In this document: piece by piece, positions 5,018-61,603 of the stretch | How positions within the stretch are numbered: the stretch's first letter is position 1 | Layout of the letters: the number at the start of each line of letters is the position of its first letter | Assembly: GCA_958295895.1 (NCBI GenBank) | Contig: CATQHI010000006.1 | Coordinates: 1 to 64,000 of the forward strand | Source: Saprospiraceae bacterium | GTDB lineage: Bacteria > Bacteroidota > Bacteroidia > Chitinophagales > Saprospiraceae | DNA: 64,000 nucleotides | Reading direction: 5' to 3' | Program-made: the position numbers and the translations under genes | The notes under the pieces: generated by a model | Database searches by the model: none | The model's input: the letters and a program-made list of their open reading frames with translations, nothing else | Told to the model about the DNA's origin: nothing

Positions 5018-5644
5018 GTGGATTTCGTCACCGCGCTGCTGCTCGGCCTGGCCGCAGCGGTCGGGGCCACCTGGTTTCCCGGGCTCCTCAACATGAACAG
5101 CGTCAGTGTCACCCTACGGGCCGGCCGCCGGGCGGGTTACCTCTTCGGGGCGGGCATGACGGTGGCCTTCACCGCCCAGGCCGCCCTGGCCGTTTTCTTC
5201 GCCTCGTACTTCGCCGCCCACCCCCGTATTCTCACCTTTATGCGGCAGTGGGCGGTGCTAGTATTGCTCGTGCTAGCGGCCTTTTTTCTGGTCAAGGGTT
5301 TTCGGGCCCAACTACGGCACGAAGACTCCGAGAGTACGCCCTACCACGGCAGTCCGTTCGTGCGCGGCATCGCGCTTGCCCTGATGAATTTTCTCACCGT
5401 CCCCTACTTCTTCGCGGTCTGTGGCTGGCTGCTCTCCGACGGCCACCTCCGGGGCGATCTAGGCTCCCGCACCGGCTTTACCCTGGGCGCGGGCGCAGGT
5501 GCCATGCTTGTCTTCGCAGCCTATACCCGCAGTGCACGCTGGATGCAGCAGCGGGCCCATTTTCTGACCCGCAACATTAATTTCGTACTGGGCGGTATCC
5601 TGATCCTACTAGCTATGATACAGGCGATCCGGATGTACTCCTAG
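5018..5644 (+). CDS. LysE/RhtB-like multi-pass membrane transporter
   Basis: A 208-residue protein with about six hydrophobic segments: 4-24, 42-68, 72-92, about 115-140, 150-175 and 185-205. The N-terminal pattern LLGLAAAVGATWFPGLLNMNSVSV resembles the first helix of LysE-family exporters, which carry amino acids or related solutes out of the cell. The GTG start at 5018 sits just after a TACCTTCG promoter box, which favours it over later starts. It is divergent from the phosphohexomutase. A 3-mismatch copy of the dispersed 19-bp motif encodes the GAGAGAM stretch. The substrate is unknown. Confidence 0.65.
   Translation: MDFVTALLLGLAAAVGATWFPGLLNMNSVSVTLRAGRRAGYLFGAGMTVAFTAQAALAVFFASYFAAHPRILTFMRQWAVLVLLVLAAFFLVKGFRAQLRHEDSESTPYHGSPFVRGIALALMNFLTVPYFFAVCGWLLSDGHLRGDLGSRTGFTLGAGAGAMLVFAAYTRSARWMQQRAHFLTRNINFVLGGILILLAMIQAIRMYS
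5485..5503 (+). repeat. Dispersed 19-bp motif, 16/19 variant
   Basis: Compared with GGGCGGGGCCGCAGGTGCA, positions 6, 9 and 19 differ. It lies inside the LysE-like gene and encodes Gly/Ala codons, so it could be coincidental. Confidence 0.35.
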
Positions 5645-5735
5645 CCCCCTGCGAACCGCAACGACGGCCCCCCCTTGCTCAAATATTTGCAAATTCGCCA
5701 CAACACCAGACCGAAATACGGTATTTGGGCAGTAT

Positions 5736-6857
5736 ATGATTCGTCTACCCGCCCTCCCCGCTCCCGCGCCCGTCGAGCTCGCCCGCCGGCTGCAGCAGCA
5801 GTTTGCCGAGTGGGCTCCCGAGACCTTTGCCTCGGCCGCCTACCCCCAGCGGGAGATGGATGCCATACGCCAAGCCGGTCTGCTCCACATCACCCTGCCC
5901 GGGGAGGCCCTCGATCTTCGCCACAGCAATACGCCCGCCCTGCTCCAGCTCCTTCGGTACATCGGACAGGGTAACCTCTCGGTGGGGCGCATCTACGAGG
6001 GGCACGTCAATGCCCTCCAGCTCATCGCCGTCTACGGTACCCCGGCCCAGCAGCAGCGCTGGTTCGCCGATGCCCGCGCCGGTCACCTCTTCGGCGTGTG
6101 GAATACCGAGATGCAGGATGGTATTCACCTGGACCGGCAACGCACCGGAAAGGTGCGCATCCGGGGAAGTAAGAGTTTTTGCAGCGGCTCGGTCCACGTG
6201 ACGCGCCCCATCGTGCCCGGCGTGCTCCACGACAGCAAGGGCAGGGCGCTAGGTTGGCAGATGGCTATCGTGCCCCTGGACCGCCACGACCCTCCCGTTG
6301 ATAAGAGCTTCTGGACGCCGCTCGGCATGCGCAATAGCGTGAGCCATAAGATCGATTTCACCGGCATTTTGCTCGAACCTACCGATCTGTTGGGCCATCC
6401 CGGCGACTACAACCGCCAACCCTACCTCAGTGGGGGGGCCATCCGCTTCGCTGCCGTGCACCTGGGCGGGGCGGCGGCCGTCCTGGAAGCCATACGGGAG
6501 TACATTCGCCAGCTTAAACGCACCGAAGACTGCTACCACCGCAGCCGCGTCGGACAAATGGCCATCCTGGTCGAAAGCGGTAACCAGTGGCTGGAGCGGT
6601 CCGGCCGCCTGACCGACCAGAGCAGTGATACCGACGAGATCATCTATTACGCCAACATGACCCGCACGGCCATCGCCAGTATCTGCACCGATTGTCTGCG
6701 TCTGGCCGAGCACAGCGCCGGCGCCCGGGGCATGCTACATCCCTACGCCCTGCCCCGCCTGCACGCCGACCTGACCATGTACCTGCGCCAACCCGCCCCC
6801 GACGCCGCCCTCGAGGCCGTCGGCAAACACTACCTAGATGACCACCCTACCCACTGA
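5736..6857 (+). CDS. Acyl-CoA dehydrogenase family protein
   Basis: A 373-residue acyl-CoA dehydrogenase-like flavoprotein with the helical N-domain (1-110), the beta domain (FGVWNTEMQDG and GSKSFCSGS near 125-155, the FAD region) and a helical C-domain. Compared with fatty-acid oxidation enzymes it is divergent, and I see no clear catalytic Glu motif. Its ATG at 5736 is followed by a 20-bp overlap with the PIG-L/methyltransferase gene, and a GT2 gene faces them. The same trio occurs together in other bacteria, which suggests oxidation of a carrier-bound or glycan-linked intermediate rather than beta-oxidation; that role is an inference. Confidence 0.8.
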   Translation: MIRLPALPAPAPVELARRLQQQFAEWAPETFASAAYPQREMDAIRQAGLLHITLPGEALDLRHSNTPALLQLLRYIGQGNLSVGRIYEGHVNALQLIAVYGTPAQQQRWFADARAGHLFGVWNTEMQDGIHLDRQRTGKVRIRGSKSFCSGSVHVTRPIVPGVLHDSKGRALGWQMAIVPLDRHDPPVDKSFWTPLGMRNSVSHKIDFTGILLEPTDLLGHPGDYNRQPYLSGGAIRFAAVHLGGAAAVLEAIREYIRQLKRTEDCYHRSRVGQMAILVESGNQWLERSGRLTDQSSDTDEIIYYANMTRTAIASICTDCLRLAEHSAGARGMLHPYALPRLHADLTMYLRQPAPDAALEAVGKHYLDDHPTH

Positions 6858-8220
6858 CCCGCACGCGCTGGCTGAGCGCAAGGCCAGCCTGTACACCGAC
6901 GCCCCCATTCACCCCCACGGCGACCTGCACCCCTGGCATAGCACGGTGGTGTTTTCTCCCCACCAGGACGATGAGTCGCTGGGCTGCGGCGGCCTCATCG
7001 CCACCCTCACCGACCGCGGCCAGCAGGTACGCGTGGTGTTCGTCAGTGACGGCAGCATGTCGCACCCCCAGTCGGAAAAGTTTCCCCGTCATGCGCGCAT
7101 TACCCTGCGCCGCGCCGAGGCCGTAGTTGCCTGCGCCACCCTGGGGGTACCCCCTCAGCACGTGCACTTCATGGCCCTGCCCGACGGGGAGGTGCCCCGG
7201 CAGTGGCACCCGGATTTCGGCTCCATCGTCGATGACCTGAGTCAGCGTCTGACGGACTGGCAAGCCGATACCCTGGTCGTGCCCTGGCGGCGCGATCCCC
7301 ACCCCGACCACCGGGCCACCTGGGAAATTTGCCGGGCCGCCGCCGAGCACTACCGTCCGGAGGGGATTCGGTGGATCGAGTACCCCGTATGGCTGTGGGA
7401 GGCCCAGAACGTGGTCGACCTGCCCCGCCCCGACGAGATGATCGTCTGGCAGCTCGACGTAGCCGCGCAGCAGGAGCGCAAACAACGCGCCATTCACGCC
7501 CACGTTTCCCAGTACGCCGGTATCATCGACGATGCGCCCGACGGGTTCCAGCTCCAGGAGCATATGCTCAACCACTTCCGCCAGCCTACCGAGGTGTTTT
7601 TCGAGGAGGCTGCTAAACGGCACCGCACCCTGCCGGAGGATTACTTCGACGGCGTCTACGCCCATACCGAAGACCCCTGGGACTTCGAAACCAGTACCTA
7701 CGAGCGCGAAAAGTATGCGGCTACTGTGGCCGCCCTGCCCGAGGCGCAGTATACCTCGGCCTTTGAGATCGGCTGTTCCATTGGAGTGCTCACGGAGTTG
7801 CTGGCCAGCCGCTGTGACGCCCTACTTGCCATCGACATCAATGAGGCTCCCCTGATCCGCGCCCGCGAGCGGCTGGCCGACCAGCCCCAGGTCACCTTCC
7901 GCAGAATGACGGTGCCGAAGGAGTTTCCCGCCGAGCGCTTCGACCTAGTCGTGCTCAGCGAGGTAGGTTACTACTGGAGCTCCGAAGACCTCACCCGGGC
8001 CATAACGCTCATCGGGGAGGCCGTTCTGCCGGGGGGTACGCTCATTCTAGTCCACTACACGCCCTACGTACCGGATTATCCGCTGACTGGTGATGAGGTG
8101 CACGAGACGTTCAGTCAACTTCTACGGGGCTTTCATCACCTGAAGGCGGAGCGGGCCGAGCGGTACCGGATGGACGTCTGGAAAAAAAAGGGCGGGGCCG
8201 CAGGTGCACCGAACGGGTAA
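6838..8220 (+). CDS. Bifunctional PIG-L deacetylase / SAM-dependent (NodS-like) methyltransferase
   Basis: A 460-residue fusion. Residues 1-240 are a PIG-L/LmbE deacetylase with the zinc motif HQDDESLGCGG (about 41-51) and the second metal motif PHPDHRATW (about 153-161). Residues 265-455 are a class I methyltransferase with the SAM-binding segment AFEIGCSIGVLTELLA and a following acidic residue in LAIDINEA, resembling NodS N-methyltransferases. Together the halves could remove an N-acetyl group and methylate the freed amine of an amino sugar. The last residues (GGAAGAPNG) are encoded by an exact copy of the dispersed 19-bp motif, and the 3' end overlaps the convergent glycosyltransferase by 110 bp. 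Confidence 0.88.
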   Translation: MTTLPTDPHALAERKASLYTDAPIHPHGDLHPWHSTVVFSPHQDDESLGCGGLIATLTDRGQQVRVVFVSDGSMSHPQSEKFPRHARITLRRAEAVVACATLGVPPQHVHFMALPDGEVPRQWHPDFGSIVDDLSQRLTDWQADTLVVPWRRDPHPDHRATWEICRAAAEHYRPEGIRWIEYPVWLWEAQNVVDLPRPDEMIVWQLDVAAQQERKQRAIHAHVSQYAGIIDDAPDGFQLQEHMLNHFRQPTEVFFEEAAKRHRTLPEDYFDGVYAHTEDPWDFETSTYEREKYAATVAALPEAQYTSAFEIGCSIGVLTELLASRCDALLAIDINEAPLIRARERLADQPQVTFRRMTVPKEFPAERFDLVVLSEVGYYWSSEDLTRAITLIGEAVLPGGTLILVHYTPYVPDYPLTGDEVHETFSQLLRGFHHLKAERAERYRMDVWKKKGGAAGAPNG

Positions 8221-9402: not shown

Positions 9403-10398
9403 TTACATCCCGCCCACCAGCTGCACCTCCCGCTCCAACTGCACCCCGAACTGCTCGGCTACTGTGTCCTGTATCCGCTTACTGAAGTCCAGTACATCGC
9501 GTCCGCAGGCACCGCCCCGGTTCACCAGTACCAGGGCCTGACGGTCGTAGGTGCCGACGCGCTCGTTGCCCTGGCCGCGGAGGCCGGCCCGGTCGATGAG
9601 CCAGCCGGCGGGTAGCTTGACGTGCGCCTCGTCGATAGGGTAGGCAGGTAGGTCACTATGCGTCTGTAGTAACCGCTCATAGGTGCTGCGGGCTACCACC
9701 GGATTTTTGAAGAAACTGCCACTATTGCCCAGGAGGAACCAGTCGGGAAGCTTACTGCGGCGGATGCCGGTCACCGCGTTTGCCACGTCGGTGGCGGTAG
9801 GCTGCTCGATCCCCAGCCGATCCAACTCGCCCCGGATGGCCCCGTAGTCTAGCTTCAGGGCGCGGGGAGTGCTGAGGTCGAAGCTGACCGCCGTGATCAG
9901 GTAGCGCCCCGGCTCCCGTTTAAAGCGGCTATCGCGGTAGCCGAAGGCACAGTCGGCCGGGGACAGATCAACCGGGCCCACCCCGTACTCCCAGGCGTGC
10001 ACCGCGGTGATGAACTCAGCCACCTCCGCCCCGTAGGCTCCGATGTTCTGTACGGGGGCTGCTCCCACCGTGCCGGGAATGAGAATAAGGTTTTCCATTC
10101 CCACAAAGCCCCGTTCGAGGGTGTAGCGCACGAACTGGTTCCAGTCGGCACCGGCAGCCACCCGGAAGCGACCTTTACCGTCCGACCAGGTGATGCCGCT
10201 CAGTAATACGTGTACGGTTAGTCCCGGCAGGTCTTCGAGCAGGAGTAGGTTACTTCCGCCACCTAAGACTAGGTCTGGCGCCTGCCGGAACTCCTCTCCC
10301 TCCAGTTGAGCCAGGTCGGTGAGTGGCAGGTACTGCTCGGCTACGGCCGGCAGACCGAAGGTGTTGAAGCGCCGTAGGTCTACCCCGTACCGCATCAT
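9403..10398 (-). CDS. murB: UDP-N-acetylenolpyruvoylglucosamine reductase
   Basis: A 331-residue type I MurB. Visible: FNTFGLPA at the N-terminus, FAD-binding LGGGSNLLLLED (about 46-57), PGTVGAAPVQNIGAYGAE (about 110-126), catalytic YRDSRFK, and GNSGSFFKNPVV with the proton-donating Ser. It reduces enolpyruvyl-UDP-GlcNAc to UDP-MurNAc in peptidoglycan synthesis. Its start codon overlaps the stop of the upstream ABC transporter by 4 bp, so the two are translationally linked. Confidence 0.95.
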   Translation of the reverse strand: MMRYGVDLRRFNTFGLPAVAEQYLPLTDLAQLEGEEFRQAPDLVLGGGSNLLLLEDLPGLTVHVLLSGITWSDGKGRFRVAAGADWNQFVRYTLERGFVGMENLILIPGTVGAAPVQNIGAYGAEVAEFITAVHAWEYGVGPVDLSPADCAFGYRDSRFKREPGRYLITAVSFDLSTPRALKLDYGAIRGELDRLGIEQPTATDVANAVTGIRRSKLPDWFLLGNSGSFFKNPVVARSTYERLLQTHSDLPAYPIDEAHVKLPAGWLIDRAGLRGQGNERVGTYDRQALVLVNRGGACGRDVLDFSKRIQDTVAEQFGVQLEREVQLVGGM

Positions 10399-12242
10399 TC
10401 CGCCAGGTCGAATTGCAGGCGGGCCAGGGCGGAGTAGGCCCCGTGGGGCCGCACGCTGAGCTCTTCGTGGGTACCGGACTCCACGATCGTGCCATTCTCA
10501 ATGACGTAGATCCGGTCGACGTTACGAATGGTAGCCAGCCGGTGGGCGATGATGATGCTGGTACGGCCGTGCATGAGGTTATCGAGGGCCTCCTGGACGA
10601 CGCGCTCGCTCTCGGCATCGAGGCTGCTGGTCGCCTCGTCGAGCAGCAGAATCTTGGGATCTTTGAGGATGGCCCGGGCGATGGCCACCCGCTGCCGCTG
10701 TCCGCCGCTGAGCTGAATGCCGCGATCCCCAACCAGCGTATCGAACCCCTCGGGGAAGGCCTCGATGAAGTCCAGGGCATTCGCCTGCCGGGCGGCGGCG
10801 CGCACCTCCTCGTCGGTGGCATCGAGCTTCCCGTAGGTAATATTCTCCCGGATGGAGCCGCCGAAGAGCAGTACCTCCTGCGGCACCAGCGCCAGCTGAT
10901 CGCGGTAGGGTTCGAGGTCGAAGGATTCGATGTCGTGCCCATCGATGCTGATGTGCCCCTCGGTAACGGGATAGAAGCGCAGCAGCAGTTTCACAATGGT
11001 CGACTTACCGCTTCCGCTCGCCCCGACCAGGGCTACCTTTTCGCCGGGAGCGACGTGGAGGTCGATGCCCCGGAGTACGGTCACATCCGGACGGGTGGGG
11101 TAGGCGAAGACCACCCGCTGGTAGTCGATGGCTCCGGTGAACGCGGTGGTAATCAGCTCCTCCCCCGATTCACTTGGCACCGGCGGCCCCGCCCCGTCTG
11201 CTGCTTGTTCCACGCCCTCGTATTCCTGGCTTTCGAGGATGTCGACGACGCGGTCGGAGGCGCCCAGCGCCCCCACGATCTCCCCGTAAAAGCTGCCGAG
11301 ACTGGCTACGGAGCCCCCAATAATGCCCGTCAGAACGATGAAGGTGAAGAGGTCACCGACCGGTAGATTGCCCGACTGCACCAGCAGGATGGCGCGGTAA
11401 ATAATGAAGAACAGCGCCCCGAACATGACGCTGACGATGAAGGCCGAGAAGAGGCCGCGGGCGTTAGCCGTGCGGATGGAAATAGCGACGGATTCATCAA
11501 TGCTGCGGCCGTAGCGGGCCAGCTCGAAATCCTCGTTGGTGTAGGCCTTGACGGTGGAGATGCTCTGAAGCGTTTCCTCGACGATGACGTTGCTCTGGGC
11601 GAGTTGTTCCTGGCGGGCCTTGGTCATTTTGCGGACGTAGCGGCCGAAGAACATGGCCACGATGACCACCACAGGAAAGACGATGAGACTCACCAGCGCC
11701 AGGCGGAACATGGTGAAAAGGATGAAGGCCGTAGCCCCGATCAGAATAATGATCTGGCGGGCAAACTCCGTAAGCGTGAGGCTAAACACCCCCTGGATCT
11801 GGGTGATGTCGTTGGTGATGCGGCTGGAGAGCTCGCCCACCCGGCTGCGCTCGAAGTAGGGGACGCTGAGGTGCAGCATTTTGGCGAATAGCTCCTTGCG
11901 CAGCGCAGCCATGGAGCGTTCGCTGACGATGGCCTGGATGCGGACGCGGTAGAAGCTCAGCGGGGCCTGGATGATCACTAGGGCGGCTAGGAGCTGGAAC
12001 ACCTCATCGACCGTGAGCCCGTACTTACCCTTCCCGTTGTAGATATTCAGGGCCTCGCCGGGCAACTGGATAAGGACCAGGAATACCAGCGAGCTTAGGC
12101 CCAGGATGACGAAACTCAGGGCAAACAGCCAGCGGTACTGCCAGACGTAGTCGAAGATGCGCAGACTACGGCGCAGGCGCTCCTTCGTGATACGGGGTTT
12201 GGCCTCCTCGGTGGGGGCCGCTGCGGGGGTGATGGTGGCCAT
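10395..12242 (-). CDS. MsbA-like ABC exporter (fused permease and ATPase)
   Basis: A 615-residue half-transporter. Six transmembrane helices lie within residues 35-330. The C-terminal ATPase has Walker A GASGSGKST (about 412), the Q-loop region LVPQEVLLFGG, signature LSGGQRQR and Walker B ILLLDEATSSLD, followed by the switch His in IIIAHRLAT. Homodimers of this type export lipids or drugs; an MsbA-like lipid A flippase role is plausible but not shown. A linker of about 25 residues (VEQAADGAGPPVPSESGEE) between the domains is longer than usual. murB follows with a 4-bp overlap. Confidence 0.9.
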   Translation of the reverse strand: MATITPAAAPTEEAKPRITKERLRRSLRIFDYVWQYRWLFALSFVILGLSSLVFLVLIQLPGEALNIYNGKGKYGLTVDEVFQLLAALVIIQAPLSFYRVRIQAIVSERSMAALRKELFAKMLHLSVPYFERSRVGELSSRITNDITQIQGVFSLTLTEFARQIIILIGATAFILFTMFRLALVSLIVFPVVVIVAMFFGRYVRKMTKARQEQLAQSNVIVEETLQSISTVKAYTNEDFELARYGRSIDESVAISIRTANARGLFSAFIVSVMFGALFFIIYRAILLVQSGNLPVGDLFTFIVLTGIIGGSVASLGSFYGEIVGALGASDRVVDILESQEYEGVEQAADGAGPPVPSESGEELITTAFTGAIDYQRVVFAYPTRPDVTVLRGIDLHVAPGEKVALVGASGSGKSTIVKLLLRFYPVTEGHISIDGHDIESFDLEPYRDQLALVPQEVLLFGGSIRENITYGKLDATDEEVRAAARQANALDFIEAFPEGFDTLVGDRGIQLSGGQRQRVAIARAILKDPKILLLDEATSSLDAESERVVQEALDNLMHGRTSIIIAHRLATIRNVDRIYVIENGTIVESGTHEELSVRPHGAYSALARLQFDLAE

Positions 12243-14901: not shown

Positions 14902-15043
14902 GGTGAGTTGTTGAGTGGATGCGTTATTGCGTTATTGGATTGCTGGCGTGATAGGTGTGCGGGGTCGCGGGTGCGAAGTGTAGGGCAAAGGTAGCGAGTA
15001 GCGTTTCCGGGGGTGGTTGTTACTTCGTGGTAAAGTTTATCCT

Positions 15044-19992: not shown

Positions 19993-20838
19993 TCAACCCC
20001 CCAACAATTGCCAAAGCTTCACCACCTGCACCGCCTCCCGCACGTCATGGACCCGCAGCACCGAGGCCCCCTGCTGTAGTGCGTAAAGATTGAGCGCGGC
20101 GGTAGCCGAAAGACTCTCCTCCGGACCGATCTTCAGCGGCTTGTAGACCATTCCCTTTCGACTCATTCCTGCCAGCACCGGCACACCCAGGTAGTGAAAG
20201 GCGTGCAAGTTCTTCAGCAGCGTGTAGTTCTGCGCCTGGTTCTTGCCGAAGCCGAAACCGGGGTCCACGAGAATATCCAGCACACCAAGGTTACGGATGC
20301 GCACGAGGTGCTCGGCCAGGAAGTCCCAGACGTGGGTCACGACATCCTCGCCGTAGTCCTGCGTATGCTGCTGCATGGTGGCCGGCGTGGCGTCGGGCAT
20401 GTGCATGAGCACGTAGGGCACGCGTAAGTCAGCTACGGTGGGTAGTAGCTCCTTATCGAAGCGGCCGGCACTGATGTCGTTGATCATCCCGGCGCCGGCG
20501 GCGACGGCGGCGCGGGCCGTAGCGGCGTAGACCGTGTCGCAGCTGATCACGACCTTCGGGTCCACTGCCCGCACCGCCTCGATGACGGGCAGCACCCGCT
20601 CCTGTTCCTCGGCGGCGGTGATGAGCTCTGCGCCGGGCCGGGACGACATCCCCCCCACGTCGATGATCGCAGCGCCCGCCTCCACCATGGCACCTGCGGC
20701 CGCGCCCACCTGTTCAGTTTGCACGCGACTGCCGGCGTAGAAGCTATCCGGCGTAGCGTTAAGGATGCCCATGACCAGCGGCCGTTCGGCGCGCAGGAAG
20801 AAGCCGTTGCAGTTGAGGGAGAAGGGTTCGAAAAGCAC
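19993..20838 (-). CDS. folP: Dihydropteroate synthase
   Basis: A 281-residue DHPS: MGILNATPDSFYAGS (23-37), DVGGMSSRPGAE (about 60-71), GMINDISAGRFD, VLMHMPDATP, DPGFGFGK and the C-terminal RVHDVREAV. It joins p-aminobenzoate to hydroxymethyl-dihydropterin diphosphate in folate synthesis. The start is a GTG. A 2-mismatch copy of the dispersed motif encodes GAAAGAM near residue 45. Divergent from the 507-aa membrane protein. Confidence 0.94.
   Translation of the reverse strand: MLFEPFSLNCNGFFLRAERPLVMGILNATPDSFYAGSRVQTEQVGAAAGAMVEAGAAIIDVGGMSSRPGAELITAAEEQERVLPVIEAVRAVDPKVVISCDTVYAATARAAVAAGAGMINDISAGRFDKELLPTVADLRVPYVLMHMPDATPATMQQHTQDYGEDVVTHVWDFLAEHLVRIRNLGVLDILVDPGFGFGKNQAQNYTLLKNLHAFHYLGVPVLAGMSRKGMVYKPLKIGPEESLSATAALNLYALQQGASVLRVHDVREAVQVVKLWQLLGG
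20689..20707 (-). repeat. Dispersed 19-bp motif, 17/19 variant
   Basis: On the - strand it differs from the consensus at positions 6 and 19. It lies in folP, coding Gly/Ala. Confidence 0.45.
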
Positions 20839-20892: not shown

Positions 20893-22416
20893 ATGCCGTA
20901 CACCGAGCAACAGATCCGCGGCCTGGCCATCAATTTTTTGCGCTTTCACTATAAGCTGCGGCCCCGTCATCCGGCCGCGGCGGGTACCCGCATCGTCGAC
21001 AAGCCGCACTACTACCAGGGGGTGCTGATCGACGCCCGCCTGGCCTACCGCCGCCCCGACGGCTCTTACTTCACCGCCACCGTGGAGGCCACTAGCCAGG
21101 ACCGGCAGGACGAAATTCTCTACCAGACCAATTACTGGCGTATCACCGCGCACACCCTCGTTTGGACCCTGCTGCTCACCACCGCACTCATATGGGCGGG
21201 CACGCAGGTGCAAAGCTTGAACCTATTTCGGCTCTTCGGTACCCCGAATGCTTATCTGGTGCTGATGCTGCTTTTCGTGACTCTCTTCACGGTAGTAGGG
21301 GCAATGCTGCGCGGACTGAAGCGCTACCGCTACATCTACGCCGTAGATCAATTCAAGCATTTCTACGCCGATGCGCAGTGGGTGGCCTACGACGTAAAGA
21401 TTTTTGCGGCCGATACGCGGCGTACCCGGCGGCGGTACGAGGAATTAGAGCGGCAGTGCGTGAAGTACGGCTTCGGACTGCTGGCGGTAGAGGAGGAAAA
21501 GGTGGTGCGTAATGTGATGAGTCCGAGTCAGGTCGATCAGTTCGGTGGCCACCGTATCCGGCTGCCGCGCTGGCTGGCCCGGGCGGAGGTAGCCGCGCCG
21601 CAGGTGGCCGTGCCGCCCCCGGAAGCGATCGACCCACTGGCGGTGGAGAAGCCGGTGCGGGCCGTGGTACCCGCGAGTCCAGGTCGGCCGCCTGCTTTGC
21701 GGCAGTTGGGTAAGCGGGGGGTACTGCTCCGGGCGCGCATACGCCGGTTTTACCGCGGCCTATTTCCCTCTGGACTGCGGCGGCGACCGGGTTACTATAA
21801 GTTGGGGGGCTGGGTGTTTACGCTAGGGGTACCGGCAGTGCTACTGCTGGGCTGGGGAGTATACCGACAGGCAGCCTATTCTCCCATCGCGCTGGAGGGA
21901 CGTCGTGGTGCCGAACCCGACCTGGCGATCCTGGAGCCCGCCGGTGAAGCAGCGCCACCCTTAGCGGTCGAGGAGGGAGAATACCAGCGGCCCGAAGTTG
22001 ATACGCTGTCCGAAGAAGCATCACCAGTGAGCCCGCCCGAGGAGCCTCTTATCGCCCCGGTCCCCATAGAAAACTCAGATAGCTTAAAGCGTTACCGACT
22101 GGATGTGGATGGAGCGGAACGACTCGATTATGACTGTCTGCCGTTGTACACCCTGGGCGAACCGGTCTACATTCTACTCTTCGGTCGCTACGCAAGTTTC
22201 GCTACCGCCCGGCAATGGGCCCTGGAGCTCAACCGCCTGTACCAATCGCCGGTTACGGTAGCGGCGGGCAGTTGCGTAGAATCATCTACCTCGACGGACT
22301 ACCTGCTCTACATCGACGGCCCGACGCGGGAGGAGGGGGATGCCAACCTGCTGGCGCGGACCTTTGTACGACGCAGTGGGCTGGAGGTGGAGATTTTGGA
22401 GGTACAGGGAGAGTAG
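20893..22416 (+). CDS. Hypothetical three-helix membrane protein
   Basis: A 507-residue protein if it starts at MPYTEQQIRGLA (20893); the open frame reaches back to 20719 but would overlap folP. Residues 1-80 are soluble, 85-130 hold two membrane helices (TLLLTTALIWAG and YLVLMLLFVTLFTVVGAML), 135-215 are basic/helical, about 300-325 is a third helix (WVFTLGVPAVLLLGWGVY), followed by an acidic Pro-rich linker and a C-terminal domain with ILLFGRYASFATARQWALEL that faintly recalls SPOR repeats. The N-terminal part may be nuclease-like, but I see no convincing catalytic motif. Function unknown. Confidence 0.6.
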   Translation: MPYTEQQIRGLAINFLRFHYKLRPRHPAAAGTRIVDKPHYYQGVLIDARLAYRRPDGSYFTATVEATSQDRQDEILYQTNYWRITAHTLVWTLLLTTALIWAGTQVQSLNLFRLFGTPNAYLVLMLLFVTLFTVVGAMLRGLKRYRYIYAVDQFKHFYADAQWVAYDVKIFAADTRRTRRRYEELERQCVKYGFGLLAVEEEKVVRNVMSPSQVDQFGGHRIRLPRWLARAEVAAPQVAVPPPEAIDPLAVEKPVRAVVPASPGRPPALRQLGKRGVLLRARIRRFYRGLFPSGLRRRPGYYKLGGWVFTLGVPAVLLLGWGVYRQAAYSPIALEGRRGAEPDLAILEPAGEAAPPLAVEEGEYQRPEVDTLSEEASPVSPPEEPLIAPVPIENSDSLKRYRLDVDGAERLDYDCLPLYTLGEPVYILLFGRYASFATARQWALELNRLYQSPVTVAAGSCVESSTSTDYLLYIDGPTREEGDANLLARTFVRRSGLEVEILEVQGE

Positions 22417-43523: not shown

Positions 43524-43916
43524 ATGCAAAAGCAACAAATCACCCACCCCCGGCGCCAGCCAGGCTTCACCACCGGCGCCTACTCCGACGGTGTAGTCTG
43601 CGATGGCCTACTCTTCGTGAGCGGACAGGCCTGCGTAGACTTCACCACCTCCACCTTCGCCCTGGGTACTATCGAGGAGGAAACTCGCCGTACGCTCGAC
43701 AATGTCAAGGCCATCGTAGAAGCCGCCGGCGGTAGCCTCGACAACGTGCTGAAGTCGACCGTCCACCTGGCCGACATCAACGACTTCGACCGTTTCAACA
43801 AGGTGTATGGTACCTACTTTACGGGGGTACGGCCCGCACGGACCACGGTACAGTCAGGACTCGGCCACGGCATTAAGGTGGAGATCGACGTGGTGGTCAA
43901 GCTGCCGCGATCGTGA
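43524..43916 (+). CDS. RidA/YjgF-family enamine/imine deaminase
   Basis: A 130-residue protein with the RidA pattern GAYSDGVVCDGLLFVSGQ (17-34), TRRTLDNVKAIVEAAGG and the catalytic Arg in RPARTTVQ (about 107). RidA hydrolyses reactive enamines released by PLP enzymes. The stop overlaps the GTG of the next gene, a D-threonine-aldolase-like PLP enzyme, which fits that protective role. Confidence 0.92.
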   Translation: MQKQQITHPRRQPGFTTGAYSDGVVCDGLLFVSGQACVDFTTSTFALGTIEEETRRTLDNVKAIVEAAGGSLDNVLKSTVHLADINDFDRFNKVYGTYFTGVRPARTTVQSGLGHGIKVEIDVVVKLPRS

Positions 43917-46203: not shown

Positions 46204-47838
46204 ATGCAAATTGCCGGTCCATCACTGCTGTGTGCCCTACTACTTACCGCCGCAGACTGCCGCGCCCAGGAGGTGTACAGCGAGGAGCTCCTGCCCGACG
46301 AGCGCTGGTACGGCGGGCTCTCCGTAGACGGCTACCGGATGCCCTACACGGTGGAGAGTGACATTGAACGGAACCTCTATGGCAACAATGCAGGCAATCA
46401 GGCACAACCCCTGCTCCTATCCGACAAGGGCCGCTACGTGTGGAGCGAGGAGCCATTCCGCTACGTGATTCGCGACGGGCGTATCGAGGTGACAGCGCAG
46501 GGAAAAGACGGCGAGTTGATGACGGGCACTGAGGGCGATAACCTCCGGGAGGTATACCGCTACGCGAGCAAGCGCTTTTTTCCGAGCAACGGCAAGACGC
46601 CGGCCCCGCTCCTGTTTACCCAACCACAGTACAACACCTGGATCGAACTCACCTACGATCAGAAGCAGGAGGCGATCCTGACCTATGCCCGTAGCATCAT
46701 CGATCAGGGCTACCCACCGGGGGTGCTCATGATCGACGACACCTGGCAGGAAGATTACGGGGACTGGCGCTTCAGCGGCAGCCGCTTTGCCGATCCGGAG
46801 GGCATGATGGACTCACTACACGCCCTGGGCTTCGAGGTGATGCTCTGGATCTGTCCCTTCGTAAGCGCCGACTCCGACGAGTACCGTTACCTGGCCGAGC
46901 GGGGCCTGCTGCTGCTGGACGGTAGCCTGCCCGGTCCGGAGGGCGACGCGCGCTGGCAGAACACCCGTGACCGGGTGGCCATCGTACGCTGGTGGAATGG
47001 GGCGAGTGGACTGCTGGACCTGAGTAACCCGGCCGCCCGCGACTGGCTGCAGGCCCAGCTCGATACGCTACAGGAGCAATACGGCGTTGACGGCTTTAAG
47101 CTTGATGCGGGGGATGCGGCCTTCTACGCCGATAGCACGCTGGTATCCTACAATCCCTCCAGTCCGAACGATCACACCACCTACTTCGCCGAGATCGGAC
47201 TAAAGTACCCCTTGAACGAGTACCGCGCGAGTTGGAAGATGGCGGGGCTACCGCTGGTGCAGCGCCTGCGCGACAAGGCCCACGACTGGGGGGACCTGCA
47301 GCAGCTCGTACCCGGCATCATCGCCCAGGGGCTGATGGGCTACGCATATACCTGTCCGGATATGATCGGGGGTGGCGAGTACACCAGCTTCCTACCGGGC
47401 TCGGTGATTGACGAGGAGCTGGTGGTGCGCAGTGCCCAGACCTCGGCCCTGATGCCAATGATGCAGTTCAGCGTAGCGCCGTGGCGGGTGCTCTCGGTGG
47501 AGAATAACCAGATCTGTAAGGACATGGCGCTGTTGCACGTGGAGTACGGCGAAGAGATATTTGCCCTGGCCGAGGAGTCGTCGCGTACCGGTGAGCCCAT
47601 CGCCCGCTCGCTCGACTACAACTACCCCGGGGCGGGGTACGGCGACGTCCATGATCAGTTCATGCTGGGTACCCGCTTACTGGTGGCCCCCATTACGGAG
47701 CAGGGGGCACGGGAGCGGTCCGTCACCTTTCCGGAGGGTGAGTGGCGGGGGGATGATGGGAGTACGGTCACCGGTCCGACCACCCTCACCATTGACGTAC
47801 CCCTGGAACGCCTGCCCTACTACCGCCTGACCGAATGA
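46204..47838 (+). CDS. Glycoside hydrolase family 31
   Basis: A 544-residue secreted enzyme with signal peptide ending CRAQ. GH31 barrel: [30 protein letters not shown], catalytic nucleophile in DGFKLDAGD (Asp301) and probable acid/base in CPDMIGG (Asp386). GH31 members act on alpha-glucosides, xylosides, sulfoquinovosides and others; the substrate is not determinable. Stop overlaps the start of a sulfatase, which suggests a sulfated or anionic glycan. A TATCTTAA sequence 24 bp upstream may be the promoter. Confidence 0.9.
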
Positions 47839-49424
47839 AGCAACTCACCTACCTACTCTGCCTGCTGGGACTGCTAAGTGGCTGCACGGCCGACGAGCCC
47901 GCCGTGCCCGCCCGCCCCAATATCCTCTTCTGCATCGCCGATGATGCCTCCTTTCCGCACATGGGCGCCTACGGTACCCGCTGGGTGATTACGCCTGCCT
48001 TCGATCGGGTGGCACGAGAGGGGCTGCTCTTCCAGCGGGCCTACACCCCGAATGCCAAGTGCGCGCCGAGCCGGGCCTGCATCCTCACCGGCCGCAACAG
48101 TTGGCAGTTGGAGGAGGCGGCTAATCACTCGCCTACCTTCCCCGCCAAGTTCGCCTCCTTCGTAGAGGTGCTGAGTCAGAGCGGCTATCGCACTGGCTTT
48201 ACCGGCAAGGGTTGGGCTCCTGGCGACCCCGGCACGGTAGCGGGGCAGCGGCGGCAGCTTACCGGTGAGCCCTTTCAGGACCTACATACGAGCCCGCCGA
48301 CCGCAGCGATGTCAGAGATTGATTACGCGGCGAACTTCACCGCCTTCCTGGATGCCGCACCTGCGACCGCGCCCTTTTTCTTCTGGTACGGCGGCTACGA
48401 ACCCCACCGGGCCTATACCTACGGCAGTGGGCTGGACGGTACCGGTCGCTCGCTGGATGACGTGGACGACGTACCCCCCATGTGGCCCGATACCGACACG
48501 GTGCGCACCGACCTGCTCGACTATGCCCGCGAGATCGACTACTTCGACGAGCACCTGGGCCGGATGCTGGCCGAGCTCGAGCGGCGGGGGGAGCTGGACA
48601 ACACGATCGTGGTGGTGACGGCCGATAATGGTATGCCCTTTCCGCGCATCAAGGGGCAGGCCTACGAGATGAGCAATCATTTGCCGCTGGCGGTGCGCTG
48701 GCCTGCGGGGATCAAAGTAGCTGGGCGCACGGTGGAGGACTTCGTGAGCTTTGTGGACCTAGCACCTACCTTCCTCAATGTGGCGGGGGTGGCGTGGGAT
48801 TCCTCAGGTATGTCGCCTACGGTGGGCCAGAGTTTGCGTCCAATCTTGGAAAATACTCAGGAGGAGCCCTTCCGTGACCACGTGCTGATCGGTAAGGAGC
48901 GGCACGACGTGGGCCGGCCGGGGGATGTGGGCTACCCCATCCGCGGCATCGTGCGTGGTGATTACCTGTACTTGCGCAACTACGCTACGGACCGCTGGCC
49001 GGTGGGCAATCCCGAAACCGGCTACCTGAATACGGACGGCTCCCCCACCAAGACGCTGCTACTCAATCGACGCCGCAACGGAACGGACACGGCCGGTCTC
49101 TGGCAGCTCAACTTCGGTAAGCGGCCGGCGGTGGAGGTGTATAATATTGCCGCCGATCCCTACTGCATGGACAACCTGGCTGACGACCCCGAGCTAGCTA
49201 CCCTGATCGCGGGCATGGAAGAGGAGATGACTACGGAGCTGCGGGCGCAGGGGGATCCGCGGATGGTGGGTCGGGGGGAGGTGTTTGACCGGTATCCGTA
49301 CTACGGGGCGGTGGCGGGCTTTTACGAGCGGTATATGGGTGGGGAGGCGGTGGAGGCTGGTTGGGTGGAGGCTGGAGACTTCGAAGCAGCTCCGGTAGAG
49401 GAGGAGGCTGCTGAGGAACAATGA
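47835..49424 (+). CDS. Lipoprotein sulfatase (type I, formylglycine)
   Basis: A 529-residue protein with lipobox LLSGC (Cys17). The formylglycine motif CAPSR begins at Cys76; metal ligands include Asp36/Asp37 and the DNG of [10 protein letters not shown] (about 262). It resembles heparan N-sulfatase-like sulfatases of marine Bacteroidota. The tail (from about 505) is Glu/Ala-rich. It overlaps the GH31 gene by 4 bp and should act at the cell surface or periplasm on the same glycan. A separate maturase is needed for formylglycine; none is in this window. Confidence 0.9.
48356..48374 (-). repeat. Dispersed 19-bp motif, 16/19 variant
   Basis: Three mismatches; reads AAPATAP within the sulfatase. 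Possibly coincidental. Confidence 0.3.
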
Positions 49425-54511: not shown

Positions 54512-54524
54512 GCGGCGCGCGCCC

Positions 54525-55817
54525 TTAACCTTCAAACAACACACCGTACAATTCCCCAACCTCCCCCCTCGACTTAGTCATCAATCCTTGCCGCTGTTTG
54601 GCGTCACCAAAAGTTGCAAGGAGTATCTCTTGCCAGTCATACGGTTGGCAGGAAGGCTTTACGGCCAGTAGTAAGCGCAGGGCGGCGGGGTCCGTAAATG
54701 CTTTCCGGATGACCCGGTGGGGCGGCAAGTCTTCCTGTGCACAAGACACCAAGTTCAGGTAGTGTGGCAAGCTCTGCTCGGTGATACCGTAGCGCTCGAC
54801 GAAGGCCACCGCAAAGCGGCTCTTTACGTACTGGTGTTCGTCGTCGACGATCTCGAGATAGCGATCGAGCAGGAGAAAGTAATCAGGACTCGCCAGCGCA
54901 AGGGCGAAGACCGCGAAGGTACCGGGCAGGGCGGGCTCCTCCTCATCCAGGTCAAGCAACCAGTGGTCCTCCACCATCGCTAGGTCGGCATAGCGTTCCA
55001 GCAGGGGGTGCAGTTCCGGGAAGCGTACGGCCCCGGCGGCCAGGTAGTGGGCGCCGACTTTCTTGAGCCCCTTCACCGGCAGGGTCTGCTTCTCCTTCGT
55101 GGAGCATTTGAGCGAAAAGCTATGCGGAAATTCCGGCAGATCCAGCAACTGGCAGATCAGCGTGTAGGCGGTTTGGTAGGCCTGGGGCACGTCCTGTAGT
55201 AGCGTGACGGCAATGCTTGCGAAGGCGTCGTTGGCCCGCAGACGCACGTACTCGTCGGCGTAGTTGGCCAGGGCCGGGTCGAGGGCACCGCTTCCGTGTT
55301 TTTTCAGTTGCTTGACGAGATCGGACCCAAGGGCCGTCACCAGATCGAAAAGACGCTTCACCTGTACACTGGCGTAGCTCGGTCCGTACTTCTGATGGCT
55401 GGGGGCGAGGTAGCACACGAAGCGGAGAAACTCCTCGTCCTCAGGTCCAAGCGGAGCAACCGGCTCGCGGACCTTCCAGTAGGTACCTGAGCGGGTCTGG
55501 GTGAAGTCGGCGTAGCGTTCGGTGATCTGCGCTTCGACCCAGTGATCAAGAGGATCCCGATAGCGCCGGAAGCCAGTTTCGGGTCCGGGGGCCAGGCGTA
55601 GGCGTTCGAAGAAAGCGGTGTGGCCTTCCAAGTCCAGCGGCCGCGTAGTGAGGAAGTACCGTACGGTCGTATCGAGCAGGAAGCGTTCGCCGGTGTCCAG
55701 CACCAGCGGGAAAGGGTAGTCGGAACTGACGGTGTATCCCTGACCGGTTTCCAGGGCGGTGAGGAGGCGTTCTAGGAGGGCTTCGTTGCCGGGGATGGTG
55801 GTGCGGTAGTTTACCAT
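54525..55817 (-). CDS. Hypothetical protein of 430 residues
   Basis: Soluble, no signal peptide or membrane helix. Residues 1-110 include YRTTIPGNEALLERLL; 170-330 are Leu-rich and probably helical, in places like HEAT-type repeats; the end (SRGEVGELYGVLFEG) is compact. I do not recognise a catalytic motif; a DUF6138-like identity is possible but unverified. A TACCTTAC sequence just before the ATG may be its -7 box. Convergent with katG (13-bp gap). Confidence 0.6.
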   Translation of the reverse strand: MVNYRTTIPGNEALLERLLTALETGQGYTVSSDYPFPLVLDTGERFLLDTTVRYFLTTRPLDLEGHTAFFERLRLAPGPETGFRRYRDPLDHWVEAQITERYADFTQTRSGTYWKVREPVAPLGPEDEEFLRFVCYLAPSHQKYGPSYASVQVKRLFDLVTALGSDLVKQLKKHGSGALDPALANYADEYVRLRANDAFASIAVTLLQDVPQAYQTAYTLICQLLDLPEFPHSFSLKCSTKEKQTLPVKGLKKVGAHYLAAGAVRFPELHPLLERYADLAMVEDHWLLDLDEEEPALPGTFAVFALALASPDYFLLLDRYLEIVDDEHQYVKSRFAVAFVERYGITEQSLPHYLNLVSCAQEDLPPHRVIRKAFTDPAALRLLLAVKPSCQPYDWQEILLATFGDAKQRQGLMTKSRGEVGELYGVLFEG

Positions 55818-55880: not shown

Positions 55881-56021
55881 GTGCCAGATTCCATATTCCT
55901 ACTGCGGGGCGACGATACCCTCCAGCAGTTTTTGGGCGGGGACGCAGGTGCGGAGTGGGAGGAGGGCAAGTTGTGGACGTTTTTGGGGGTGTTTGATTGG
56001 TTTGTGGAGCAGATACGGTAA
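55881..56021 (+). CDS. Possible 46-residue ORF
   Basis: GTG-initiated frame VPDSIFLLRGDDTLQQF followed by GGDAGAEWEEGKLWTFLG, rich in Trp/Phe at the end. It contains a 2-mismatch copy of the dispersed motif (GGDAGA). No homolog is recognised; it could be a gene fragment. The rest of 55818-56161 appears non-coding. Confidence 0.25.
   Translation: MPDSIFLLRGDDTLQQFLGGDAGAEWEEGKLWTFLGVFDWFVEQIR
55934..55952 (+). repeat. Dispersed 19-bp motif, 17/19 variant
   Basis: Two mismatches (A at 9, G at 19). Lies in the gap between the 430-aa gene and the VapBC-like remnant. Confidence 0.5.
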
Positions 56022-58739: not shown

Positions 58740-59153
58740 TCACTTCAGGGAAAAATAGAACCGCCACACCGCCCGCCCGCCTGCGTAGCGACCGTTACCT
58801 TCCGTTACGGTGACATCCAGATAGAAACTTTCATCCGTAAGAGCTTTCTGAAGCAGGTCTGCGGTTAGCACCCGGGTCGTATGTCCATCGTCGATATACT
58901 TTTCATTTGTCTCCTCAACAGCCACGGAAAGTTCATAGCGGTTAACAGGTTCAAGCCTCACAGCACGTCCACGCTCCAGGGGATTACCATTCAGCCATAC
59001 GCTGTGGGTCCACTCATTGCCAACGTGCTGATTTAGGATTAGCTCAGCATCAACGTAGGTGAGGCTGAGGGAGGATTGACCGCGTAGAGAATCTGCACTA
59101 CCGAAGAGTAGGATAACTACTATCAAAAGGTATGCGGCCATCAGTGATCTCAT
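58740..59153 (-). CDS. Small secreted hypothetical protein
   Basis: A 137-residue protein with a signal peptide (MRSLMAAYLLIVVILLFG, cleavage around RGQ) and a beta-rich mature part (SLSLTYVDAELILNQHVGNE, AGGRAVWRFYFSLK). Its first codon overlaps the end of the UPF1-like helicase gene by 4 bp, so it is probably expressed with it. No family recognised. Confidence 0.6.
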   Translation of the reverse strand: MRSLMAAYLLIVVILLFGSADSLRGQSSLSLTYVDAELILNQHVGNEWTHSVWLNGNPLERGRAVRLEPVNRYELSVAVEETNEKYIDDGHTTRVLTADLLQKALTDESFYLDVTVTEGNGRYAGGRAVWRFYFSLK

Positions 59154-61546
59154 ACCTCTACCTCCTCCGCCACCGACACCAACCCGTGCAGCAACTGTCC
59201 CGGCCAGTTCCCCCAGTTGTCAGCGTTACAGACGATAATCAGTTCCTTCTTCGCACGGCTCACTGCCGTATTGATGACGTTGAGTCCCTTCGAGCCCACG
59301 TTATTGGTGTCCGTAAACCAGTGGGGGGAGGCATTTGCCACGCTAAGAATGACCGTATCCCACTCCCGGCCCTGACTCTTGTGCACGGTGAGAATGCGTT
59401 CTTCCTTTTGATCCTTTGGCATCTTGTGGCCTAGGGCAGCAATTTGCGCGCGGTATGGTGCCAACGTGACGTAATTAGCTTTAGGGTTTTCCCTACGCAT
59501 TGCCGTTACCAACTTCAAGACTTCAGCCACCTCACCCGACGAGGTGTTCTTCTTGTCCTTCGCATCACGTAGCGCGTGGATTACCCTGATTCTCGTACTG
59601 TGTTTCTTAGCCGCACTCCTGAACGCTCCGCCGTACACGTACTGACTTAAGATATCCGCTAGTTGCTTCCCGAAGCGGTGCGTAGCCGTTAGCTGCGACC
59701 ACGCCATCACCTCACTGAGTGGGGGGTGCGTATTCTTCAAGTAGAAATTTCTGCACGCCGAGGAGGTATGCTCGCCAAAGAGAAATCCGACGTGCAGGGC
59801 CGATTCCGCCCACAGATACATCTCCCCAAAGCCCGCCACCTTCTCAATGTCGGTATCGTTGATCTCACAGACCGGCGGCAGCTGCATATGATCACCCAGA
59901 AAGGTGATCGGCACGCGGTGGTTAAACAGCGTAAGGGCTTTCACCTGATTGGCGTAGCCGGCCTCGTCTAGAAATAGGTGATCGACTTCCATCTTCCGGT
60001 TGGCGTAGCGGCCGATGTAGGTATCCAGCGTCACGGCGATGATGGCCGCCCGTTCCTCCCGCTCTTCTGTACCCGAAGCCTCGAGATCGGCACGTTCCTT
60101 CTCGTACTCCGCACGGGTAGCGGCGAGCATCTCAGGACTGTACCCAATGTAGGCCTTCGCCAGGGCGGCCTTACCATCTAACTCCTCCAGGTGGTCATCG
60201 ATCTTCACGAGTAGTTCCGCAGGCTCTTCCAGGACGGTTCCACCACTGGTCTCGACCAGGTCCCTCATCCAGTCGTAGGTAGCTAACTGCGTAAGTAGTT
60301 GGGTGTGGACGTTGCTGAGTACCCTTTCCACTTGTTGTTTCGCTTTTCTGGTAGTCTGTAGCCGCTCGTACAGCACATCGTAATCCTGCTGATGAAAGAG
60401 TTTTTCCTTCTCCAACTCCTCGATACGTTTCTGGTGTCCTACTATATCGGTTTCGACATCTTCGCGGGCGCTGCCGAACCAGCTCTTCACCTTCGTCCAG
60501 AAGCTATCCCGCTTTTTCACCAGCTGCACGATGGTGGCTTGCCTTGCGGCGATCTCCTTATCGGGGTAGTCTACGTCAATCTTCTTTTTTCGTACCGCGA
60601 TGGCTGCGGCCTTTTCCTCTTCCACCCGCTCGCGTAGCGCGGCGGCCCGCTGCTCCACCCGCCCAGGGTGAGTCGCGACCTGCTTCTTCAGGTCCGTCAG
60701 GTCTTCCTCCTCCGCACGCACCTCCTGTAGCGTATCCAGAATTTTCAGTTGCGCGTCGATCTCGTCGATCTTCTTCTGGATGCCCATCACCTCGCACACT
60801 TCGGGGAACTCGTTGGCGAAGGCCTTAGTGGGCGTACCGAGCCGCAGTATCCGCTCCCGACTTACGCCCTCCAGGTCGGTCATCTCCATCATTCCACGCA
60901 GCACCTGCTCCAGCGAAAGGTTAGTTGGGGCTACGATGCCGACCTTCTTCCCCGCCCGGATATACCGTAGCGCGGAGTAGGCCAGTACGAATTGTGTCTT
61001 CCCCGTACCCGGCGCGCCCCACACGTAGGAGAACGGCTTGGTGGAGATCATCTCAATCGCCTGCACCTGCTCCTCACTCGGCGTCTTACCGGATAAAGCC
61101 TCGCTCGCTATATCAAATTGGGCATTGAGGGACGATGCCTCGTCTGGGATGGCGATCTCCGCCCCATTTACTTCATACCAGGATTTGGTACGCTCGATCA
61201 GAAACCGGAGGTCACTCACCACGACGATCTCTTCCTTCTTCAGTGCGTTAAAGATTGGCAGATACTCATCCTTCGGCCGCACTACCAGTAGGCCCTTGTC
61301 GCGATCGTAGTACTTCACCTTCACAGCCCCCGTATCCAATTCGTACGTTAGCACACTCAGTTTGAAGAAGATTGACTCTAGACTAAATAGTCGTTTCCCG
61401 ATGGTGAGGCTGAACACCTTCGACCCTTCCTTCCGCTCGATCTTGCTCACCTTCACCTCGTCCCGGCCCTTCTTCTGCTCCTCCATCCACGACAGCATCT
61501 TCGTCGCGCTCGCAGTGGCCGTAGCCTGTATCTCCTGGGGTGTCAT
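59150..61546 (-). CDS. UPF1-like superfamily I helicase
   Basis: A 798-residue protein if started at MTPQEIQATATAS (61546); the frame continues upstream to 61645 but that part is encoded over the dispersed motif and reads CTCGPALPYL. Motifs: Walker A WGAPGTGKTQFV, a long coiled coil (about 260-450), HLFLDEAGYANQ (II), LGDHMQLPPV (III), THRFGKQLADIL (IV), VHKSQGREWDTVIL (V) and NTAVSRAKKELI (VI). This is the AAA_11/AAA_12 helicase type. Its N-terminal 150 residues are unique. It may act in RNA/DNA processing or defence, given the broken nuclease and methylase genes around it. Confidence 0.85.
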   Translation of the reverse strand: MTPQEIQATATASATKMLSWMEEQKKGRDEVKVSKIERKEGSKVFSLTIGKRLFSLESIFFKLSVLTYELDTGAVKVKYYDRDKGLLVVRPKDEYLPIFNALKKEEIVVVSDLRFLIERTKSWYEVNGAEIAIPDEASSLNAQFDIASEALSGKTPSEEQVQAIEMISTKPFSYVWGAPGTGKTQFVLAYSALRYIRAGKKVGIVAPTNLSLEQVLRGMMEMTDLEGVSRERILRLGTPTKAFANEFPEVCEVMGIQKKIDEIDAQLKILDTLQEVRAEEEDLTDLKKQVATHPGRVEQRAAALRERVEEEKAAAIAVRKKKIDVDYPDKEIAARQATIVQLVKKRDSFWTKVKSWFGSAREDVETDIVGHQKRIEELEKEKLFHQQDYDVLYERLQTTRKAKQQVERVLSNVHTQLLTQLATYDWMRDLVETSGGTVLEEPAELLVKIDDHLEELDGKAALAKAYIGYSPEMLAATRAEYEKERADLEASGTEEREERAAIIAVTLDTYIGRYANRKMEVDHLFLDEAGYANQVKALTLFNHRVPITFLGDHMQLPPVCEINDTDIEKVAGFGEMYLWAESALHVGFLFGEHTSSACRNFYLKNTHPPLSEVMAWSQLTATHRFGKQLADILSQYVYGGAFRSAAKKHSTRIRVIHALRDAKDKKNTSSGEVAEVLKLVTAMRRENPKANYVTLAPYRAQIAALGHKMPKDQKEERILTVHKSQGREWDTVILSVANASPHWFTDTNNVGSKGLNVINTAVSRAKKELIIVCNADNWGNWPGQLLHGLVSVAEEVEV

Positions 61547-61584
61547 CTCGTAAGGGGTGTAGCATTCTTCCGTAAGGTAAGGCA

Positions 61585-61603
61585 GGGCGGGGCCGCAGGT
61601 GCA
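61585..61603 (+). repeat. Dispersed 19-bp motif, exact copy
   Basis: Exact consensus between the divergent UPF1-like helicase and methyltransferase remnant, upstream of the helicase start. Confidence 0.8.

Follow-up and report, generated by a model that had tools for sequence, protein, structure and literature searches.

What keeps so many copies of a single 19-bp sequence in a bacterial genome? The question is raised by positions 1-64,000 of contig C6 of the 4.77-Mb genome G000 (this 64-kb stretch is referred to as the window), in which a preliminary description recognized about twelve dispersed copies and proposed as candidates a DNA uptake or segregation sequence, a short mobile repeat, or a binding site for a chromosome-organizing protein. 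The host is a Neolewinella (Bacteroidota); the product of folP matches that of Neolewinella maritima at 86% and those of five other Neolewinella or Lewinella at 73-77%. Among the candidates, DNA uptake is the best supported, by dialects of the word that differ between species, by positions that are conserved in locally variable DNA, by the lack of strand polarity and by restriction to the genus. The motif is probably (at a probability of roughly 0.7) a self-DNA uptake signal of a new lineage, akin to the DNA uptake sequences (DUS) and uptake signal sequences (USS) of other bacteria, with uptake itself deduced from patterns in the genomes.

The dispersal of the sequence described earlier stands, but the count was too low, as the window holds 16 matches with three or fewer mismatches. 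This is beyond chance, as had been held (0.11 expected from 100 dinucleotide shuffles). All 13 places originally listed carry the mismatch numbers given for them (none at 8190, 41712 and 61585; one at 26628, 28001 and 31286; two at 20689, 32228, 44374 and 55934; three at 5485, 48356 and 63645), the twelve firm copies among them are divided six and six between the strands, and copies do occur between genes, at gene ends and within genes. Absent from the earlier list were copies at 236 (minus strand, three mismatches), 11176 (minus strand, two mismatches) and 21194 (plus strand, two mismatches). Genes here and below are those of a simple in-house gene caller and have approximate starts; the relatives that are referred to are N. 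maritima (G009), N. marina (G016), N. aquimaris (G017), N. litorea (G012), Lewinella sp. IMCC34191 (G001) and N. xylanilytica (G007). The copies in the window, including a degenerate one, are:

236-254, minus strand: three mismatches; within an NlpC/P60 gene (35-916, plus strand), in the opposite orientation.
5485-5503, plus strand: three mismatches; within gene 5018-5644 (plus strand), encoding LGAGAGAM.
8190-8208, plus strand: exact; final codons of a PIG-L/methyltransferase gene (6838-8220, plus strand); also exact in G009.
11176-11194, minus strand: two mismatches; within an MsbA-like ABC transporter gene (10395-12242, minus strand).
14957-14975, plus strand: degenerate, four mismatches, accepted by the weight matrix; a copy in the G007 dialect stands at the aligned place.
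20689-20707, minus strand: two mismatches; within folP (dihydropteroate synthase; 19993-20838, minus strand), encoding VGAAAGAM.
21194-21212, plus strand: two mismatches; within gene 20893-22416 (plus strand), encoding WAGTQVQS.
26628-26646, plus strand: one mismatch; within an SNF2-type helicase gene (25244-29362, minus strand), in the opposite orientation.
28001-28019, minus strand: one mismatch; within the same helicase gene, in the same orientation, encoding EGGAAGAS.
31286-31304, minus strand: one mismatch; within an adenylosuccinate-synthase-like gene (31022-32161, plus strand), in the opposite orientation.
32228-32246, minus strand: two mismatches; in the signal-peptide-like start of a tricorn-protease-like gene (32189-35425, plus strand), the antisense reading encoding CTCVRAQ.
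41712-41730, plus strand: exact; between genes 38455-41685 and 41770-42495 (both minus strand), 26 bp upstream of the former and in the opposite orientation to it.
44374-44392, minus strand: two mismatches; within a BhcC/alanine-racemase-like gene (43913-45028, plus strand), in the opposite orientation.
48356-48374, minus strand: three mismatches; within a sulfatase-like gene (47835-49424, plus strand), in the opposite orientation.
55934-55952, plus strand: two mismatches; intergenic, 116 bp upstream of a DUF6138 gene (54525-55817, minus strand).
61585-61603, plus strand: exact; upstream of or in the first codons of an AAA-helicase gene (59150-61498, minus strand; longest frame to 61645), in the opposite orientation.
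63645-63663, minus strand: weak, three mismatches; in a G-rich stretch outside predicted genes, possibly a chance match.

The surplus extends through the genome. G000 contains 387 matches with at most one mismatch (none for the pattern read backward) and 696 with at most two (control 2); the 387 are split into 217 forward and 170 reverse, a division that permits no reading of polarity since the contigs are arbitrarily oriented. In 400 kb of contig C2 there are 17, 25, 30 and 20 matches at zero, one, two and three mismatches, against about 0.6 at three mismatches and none below for a first-order Markov null, and two at three mismatches and none below for the reversed pattern; at five mismatches the motif no longer exceeds the reversed pattern (67 versus 72). 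A codon-preserving null, which the preliminary description had named as a check, leaves the excess within genes in place. Synonymous codons of the 342 predicted genes in 464 kb of G000 were shuffled 60 times, and the 52 in-gene matches with three or fewer mismatches compare with a mean of 6.57 and a maximum of 11, while the 20 with at most one mismatch compare with a mean of 0.27 and a maximum of 2. Every one of the top 22 11-mers listed for 400 kb of G000 is part of the motif. An iterated weight matrix accepts 138 sites in the 464 kb, or about one site per 3.4 kb, with one chance match per independent shuffle of each of two stretches, and its consensus is GGGCG[G/c]GG[n]CGC[A/g]GGTGC[A/g][A/G].G....T. 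The motif is asymmetric and about 20 bp long, with the core GGGCGSGGNCGCRGGTGCRR and a weak one-sided extension (G....T); an asymmetric core with a weak extension is also the anatomy of USS.

The sites are found both inside and outside genes (73 and 65, respectively, in G000; 145 and 74 in G009; 50 and 50 in G007; 58 and 53 in G001; 34 and 34 in G011, a further member of the genus), which amounts to a 3.1- to 5.6-fold enrichment per base outside genes across the five genomes. The in-gene sites of G000 use all six frame-orientation classes, unevenly and one of them just once, and the peptides encoded by the motif are of the types GGAAGA, APAAPP, AGTQVQ, LHLRPRP and CTCVRAQ. Several copies lie within signal-peptide-like N-termini, and several supply the codons for the last residues of a signal peptide (CTCV[RP]A and then Q). 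Spacing is somewhat more even than random in six of eight stretches (coefficient of variation, CV, 0.64-0.84; the other two 1.11 and 1.22). No significant strand bias is present in any of the eight stretches (64-400 kb from five genomes; p 0.23-1.0), in which the origin of replication was not located.

The distribution of the motif follows the genus, and the surplus recurs in most of its members. Among 120 genomes including G000 itself (21 genus members and 99 from other genera of the family and order), 19 of the 21 genus members have 20-1039 matches to the 19-mer with at most two mismatches; the exceptions are G001 with three and G011 with four. The 99 genomes outside the genus have eight matches in total, distributed over six genomes. 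Since some genus members have few matches to the 19-mer, over-represented words were sought without supervision, which yielded words of the GGCGGAGCGCAGGTAA type in G001 and of the CGCCGGAGCGCGGGAG type in G007; the own word of G001 is gGGCGGCGGAGCGCAGGTAAA and that of G007 is GGGCGCCGGAGCGCGGGAGC. Two forms of the word can be distinguished. Type A is GGGCGSGGNCGCRGGTGCA and type B, which has two extra bases (GGGCGN[C]GGN[G]CGCRGG), is GGGCGNCGGNGCGCRGGW. Type B dominates in the two sister species G001 and G007, with 491 and 618 exact copies, respectively, compared to 0-186 in each of the remaining 19 genus members (G000 has 57; control 0) and at most two per genome in 39 genomes outside the genus. 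Most species carry both forms in differing ratios, which are relative only, as type A was counted with up to two mismatches and type B exactly. In G002, G004, G012, G015, G016, G017 and G020 the two forms, with their two-base difference in spacing, occur side by side with dozens to hundreds of copies each.

The word of G011 found by the unsupervised search is wholly different and A/T rich, ttGGCTAACAAAGTAGCAgtG, with 68 sites in 220 kb divided 33/35 between the strands. Its 16-base core, GGCTAACAAAGTAGCA, has 907 genome-wide matches with at most two mismatches (control 5), and the other 99 genomes searched contain 0-9 each. In a tree of one gene, folP, G001 groups with G007 as its sister (support 88/91) within a clade whose species carry both forms, and G011 is on a very long branch, its position unsure. 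The dialects thus defined appear consistent with phylogeny. The unsupervised search found no such word in 180 kb of G025, the sole genome of another genus searched without a prior pattern; this is weak evidence, since the k-mer method overlooks mixed dialects in short samples and found no clear word in 140 kb of G017 either, yet a pattern search of that genome gives 327 type-A and 140 type-B copies. N. maritima (G009, L171-L190) also contains further high-copy words of the types GAGCGAAGCGATCTA and CCCTTAACCCC, which resemble separate dispersed or tandem repeats.

The positions of the sites, and not only the word, are often shared between species. When G000 was compared with 800 kb of G009, 42 of 65 alignable sites had a counterpart in G009 no more than 20 bp away, in every case with the orientation preserved, against 1 of 390 in a shifted control. 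In G017, 7 of 13 sites are kept as scored with the G000 matrix (control 1 of 78). Sites in the species' own dialect are found at the aligned place in 4 of 14 cases in G007 and 5 of 15 in G001, without any change of orientation; shifted controls gave 1 of 84 and 2 of 90, respectively. The pooled result (9 of 29 versus 3 of 174) has a Fisher p of 1.2e-6, which is too strong as G001 and G007 are sisters and three places are counted twice, leaving six distinct places. In the window, the copy at 11176 has an own-dialect counterpart at the aligned place in both G001 and G007, and that at 21194 has one in G001 and is not kept in G009. The place aligned with the copy at 236 has own-dialect copies in G001 and G007 and matches with two mismatches in G009 and three in G017; the letters of the NlpC/P60 gene there are GGGCGGGCACGCAGGTGC in G000, GGGCGGGTACGCAGGTGC in G017, TTGCGGCGGAGCGCAGGTAA in G001 and TTGCGCCGGAGCGCAGGCAA in G007.

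The motif also reaches into protein sequence. Seven species of the clade (G000, G009, G016, G017, G012, G020 and G004) have VGxxAGAM or a close form in the folP product together with the motif at three or fewer mismatches; in G001, G007 and ten species farther away the residues are different and the motif is absent. The FolP protein itself thus differs where the motif is, whatever the direction of the change. At 60 sites fully alignable between G000 and G009, identity is 88% in the 14 invariant columns of the motif and 82% in all 19 columns, compared to 72% in the flanks (-20 to -1 and +30 to +49), 76% in the farther flanks and 80% in all aligned DNA. In-gene sites alone give 88% and 82% for the motif, 73-74% for the flanks and 77-78% farther out. 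By these values the letters of the motif are constrained inside poorly conserved flanks. Among the 287 of 342 genes that lie in syntenic blocks, site density is 0.318 per kb near genes conserved in G009 (97 in 305 kb) compared to 11 sites in 63 kb near the rest (one-sided p 0.03); the rest comprises weakly matched genes, with 1 site in 17 kb (0.058 per kb), and unmatched genes, with 10 in 46 kb (0.217 per kb).

Copy number, asymmetry, dialects, replacement of one dialect by another at some fixed places, constraint and restriction to the genus match DUS and USS, and no rival fits as well. The lack of strand polarity, the protein differences that accompany the motif and the presence in the genus of the transformation proteins ComEC and DprA also speak for such a signal. 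Under the proposed mechanism, a surface receptor of Neolewinella would prefer an asymmetric watermark of about 20 bp during natural transformation, so that fragments carrying the motif would be preferentially taken up and recombined. Motif-bearing alleles would thereby spread by molecular drive and accumulate at permissive places, and a shift in the specificity of the receptor would turn the set of sites into a new dialect. If the word itself were favored in transmission, its spread would explain the appearance of the new dialect at many places, proteins included.

Uptake sequences are the clearest case of self-DNA recognition in bacteria. In the literature examined, and as far as the consulted sections of these papers extend, sequence-defined cases are those of the Neisseriaceae and Pasteurellaceae, in which type IV minor pilins are known or predicted to serve as receptors. 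In the Neisseriaceae, DUS dialects are described as barriers (Frye et al. 2013, PMC3630211) and the DUS as a conserved word with permissive DNA around it (Treangen et al. 2008, PMC2397512). The Neolewinella word resembles the neisserial DUS of these accounts in its high copy number, in species dialects that agree with phylogeny, in a possibly greater frequency in core DNA and in its conservation within permissive DNA. Unlike the neisserial DUS, it comes from a different phylum, is longer (about 20 bp), is unrelated in sequence and is known here from sequence alone. The Pasteurellaceae USS is likewise a dispersed word with divergent dialects, there within one family, and the sections consulted give the type IV minor pilin PpdA/ComN as its predicted receptor (PMC12616744); the Neolewinella word differs from it in sequence, in phylum and in that predicted pilin receptor. 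Within the Bacteroidota, Riemerella columbina offers a precedent for self-preference, as its own DNA outcompetes foreign DNA in transformation, but the only putative DUS given in the consulted sections are A/T-rich k-mers of 7-10 bp (Table 3), with no dispersed asymmetric word or dialects described (PMC7965970). A search of the open-licence PubMed Central (PMC) literature on uptake sequences in Bacteroidota, Lewinella, Neolewinella, Saprospiraceae and Riemerella returned, among the matches listed, no title or abstract start that names such a motif, with putative k-mers in PMC7965970 alone.

The receptor for the Neolewinella word would probably be of another kind. The receptor of Neisseria is the minor pilin ComP, whereas the type IV pilin N-methylation signature (PF07963) was found in none of the 21 genus members by a search whose positive control rings in 8 of 14 known genomes. 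The ATPase of type IV pili and type II secretion systems (PF00437) is represented by partial matches of 19-25 bits only, in 18 of 19 genus members and in 10 of them at or just above the cut-off, in comparison to 410-423 bits in two genomes outside the genus; the partial matches are read as probable unrelated ATPases. A receptor of the ComP or ComN kind therefore seems unlikely, unless a divergent pilin was missed by the search, and because neither a type IV pilin signature nor a convincing pilus ATPase was found, the receptor is presumed not to be a minor pilin of the ComP type. HHH_3 (ComEA-like) proteins occur in 18 of 19 genus members and, since they are also found in all 11 outside genomes examined, are uninformative about the motif. 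The fuller proposal, that self-DNA uptake in this group of Bacteroidota would proceed without a type IV pilus, and that a putative surface receptor and a word of about 20 bp would have co-evolved in one genus through the spacing variants A and B to the different word of G011, has about even odds. If true, uptake sequences would have an independent origin in the Bacteroidota, apparently without such pili; this would imply repeated evolution of the strategy and would prompt the search for a receptor of a new type. The graded series of dialects in the genus, with its spacing variants and one unrelated word, makes receptor-word co-evolution and molecular drive testable in marine isolates.

Several observations weigh against an uptake signal. 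Around gene starts (-150 to +100) most copies of the motif run antisense to the gene, with opposite/same counts of 41/14 in G000, 69/22 in G009 and 44/14 in G001, all significant, and of 27/15 in G007 and 12/6 in G011, which are not. This bias is not predicted by plain DUS theory; signal peptides with a fitting antisense reading (CTCVRAQ) may explain part of it. In 20 of the 29 alignments to G001 or G007 there is no dialect site at the place, and the bias toward core genes is modest and comes from one comparison. The transformation proteins ComEC (21 of 21 genus members; 35 of 39 outside genomes examined) and DprA (20 of 21, missing from one genome that is 55% complete; 17 of the 19 genomes examined outside the genus) do not discriminate, being present in most motif-free genera too. 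Viral-labelled DNA carries the motif as well, some contigs with two or three copies and at a density near that of the genome, in contigs selected for at least one copy. The IMG/VR contigs L273, L279, L290, L294 and L300 have similar flanks and two copies of the GGGCGCGGACGCAGGTGCA form that face opposite ways at a distance of about 3-4 kb, and L287 and L302 have similar inverted motif pairs in different sequence. DUS are usually scarce in foreign DNA, and the viral copies suggest a departure from this depletion, unless they belong to host-adapted phages or prophages; the group of five contigs may represent phages that infect Neolewinella-like hosts and bear the word of the host.

Part of this evidence would suit a nucleoid-associated or global regulatory protein that acts inside the cell, whose DNA-binding domain changes between species and whose sites number about one per 3-5 kb; the chromosome-organizing protein among the original candidates would be of this kind. 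Such a protein could account for the 3.1- to 5.6-fold enrichment outside genes, the orientation bias near gene starts that is significant in G000, G009 and G001, and the fairly even spacing in six of eight stretches (CV 0.64-0.84). It is nevertheless unlikely, since at least half of the copies are in predicted genes, in all six frame-orientation classes and with differences in the encoded protein as in folP; furthermore, a new dialect at some of the same places and the different word of G011 could hardly be driven at hundreds of sites unless the site itself were favored in transmission. A Chi- or KOPS-type signal for recombination or segregation is a good deal less probable. Chi and KOPS are polar relative to replication and Chi is far shorter than 20 bp, so that a 20-bp word in eight stretches of 64-400 kb without orientation bias (p 0.23-1.0) does not behave as expected of either, even though it is dispersed, short, asymmetric and specific to the genus. 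The polar segregation signal proposed in the preliminary description loses its footing for the same reason, as no orientation bias is present in any of the eight stretches.

A short mobile or REP-like repeat, propagated by copying and insertion, is very improbable, despite the many near-identical short copies in and between genes and the position of the motif beside gaps in some alignments, mainly outside genes, where some intergenic alignments are ambiguous. As judged by eye, orthologous places without the motif differ mostly by substitutions; 42 of 65 sites are common to G009, and a change of dialect at the same place is no insertion. The mobile repeat among the original candidates is disfavored likewise, as differences between orthologues are mostly substitutions, sites reach into protein, and position and orientation are often kept. 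No longer conserved unit surrounds the copies, and the motif is not an inverted repeat. Equally remote is a promoter or 5'-untranslated-region (5'-UTR) control element of many genes. The antisense orientation near gene starts would fit such an element, and a few copies stand just upstream of a TAnnTTTG box, the -7 element of Bacteroidota, but at least half of all copies are within genes. Up to 80 bp downstream of 65 intergenic sites there are five TAnnTTTG boxes in the antisense direction, at scattered distances, and three in the sense direction; promoter boxes of this kind do not explain the antisense bias at gene starts.

Other features of the window were recorded in addition to the motif. 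An Rfam scan at the gathering threshold matched a tRNA-Arg alone. A perfect inverted repeat with 29-nt arms and a 3-nt loop is located at 29990-30050, upstream of gene 30144-31025. Genes 32189-35425 and 38455-41685 encode tricorn-protease-like paralogues (PD40, Tricorn_C1 and Peptidase_S41) that lie in inverted orientation 3 kb apart.

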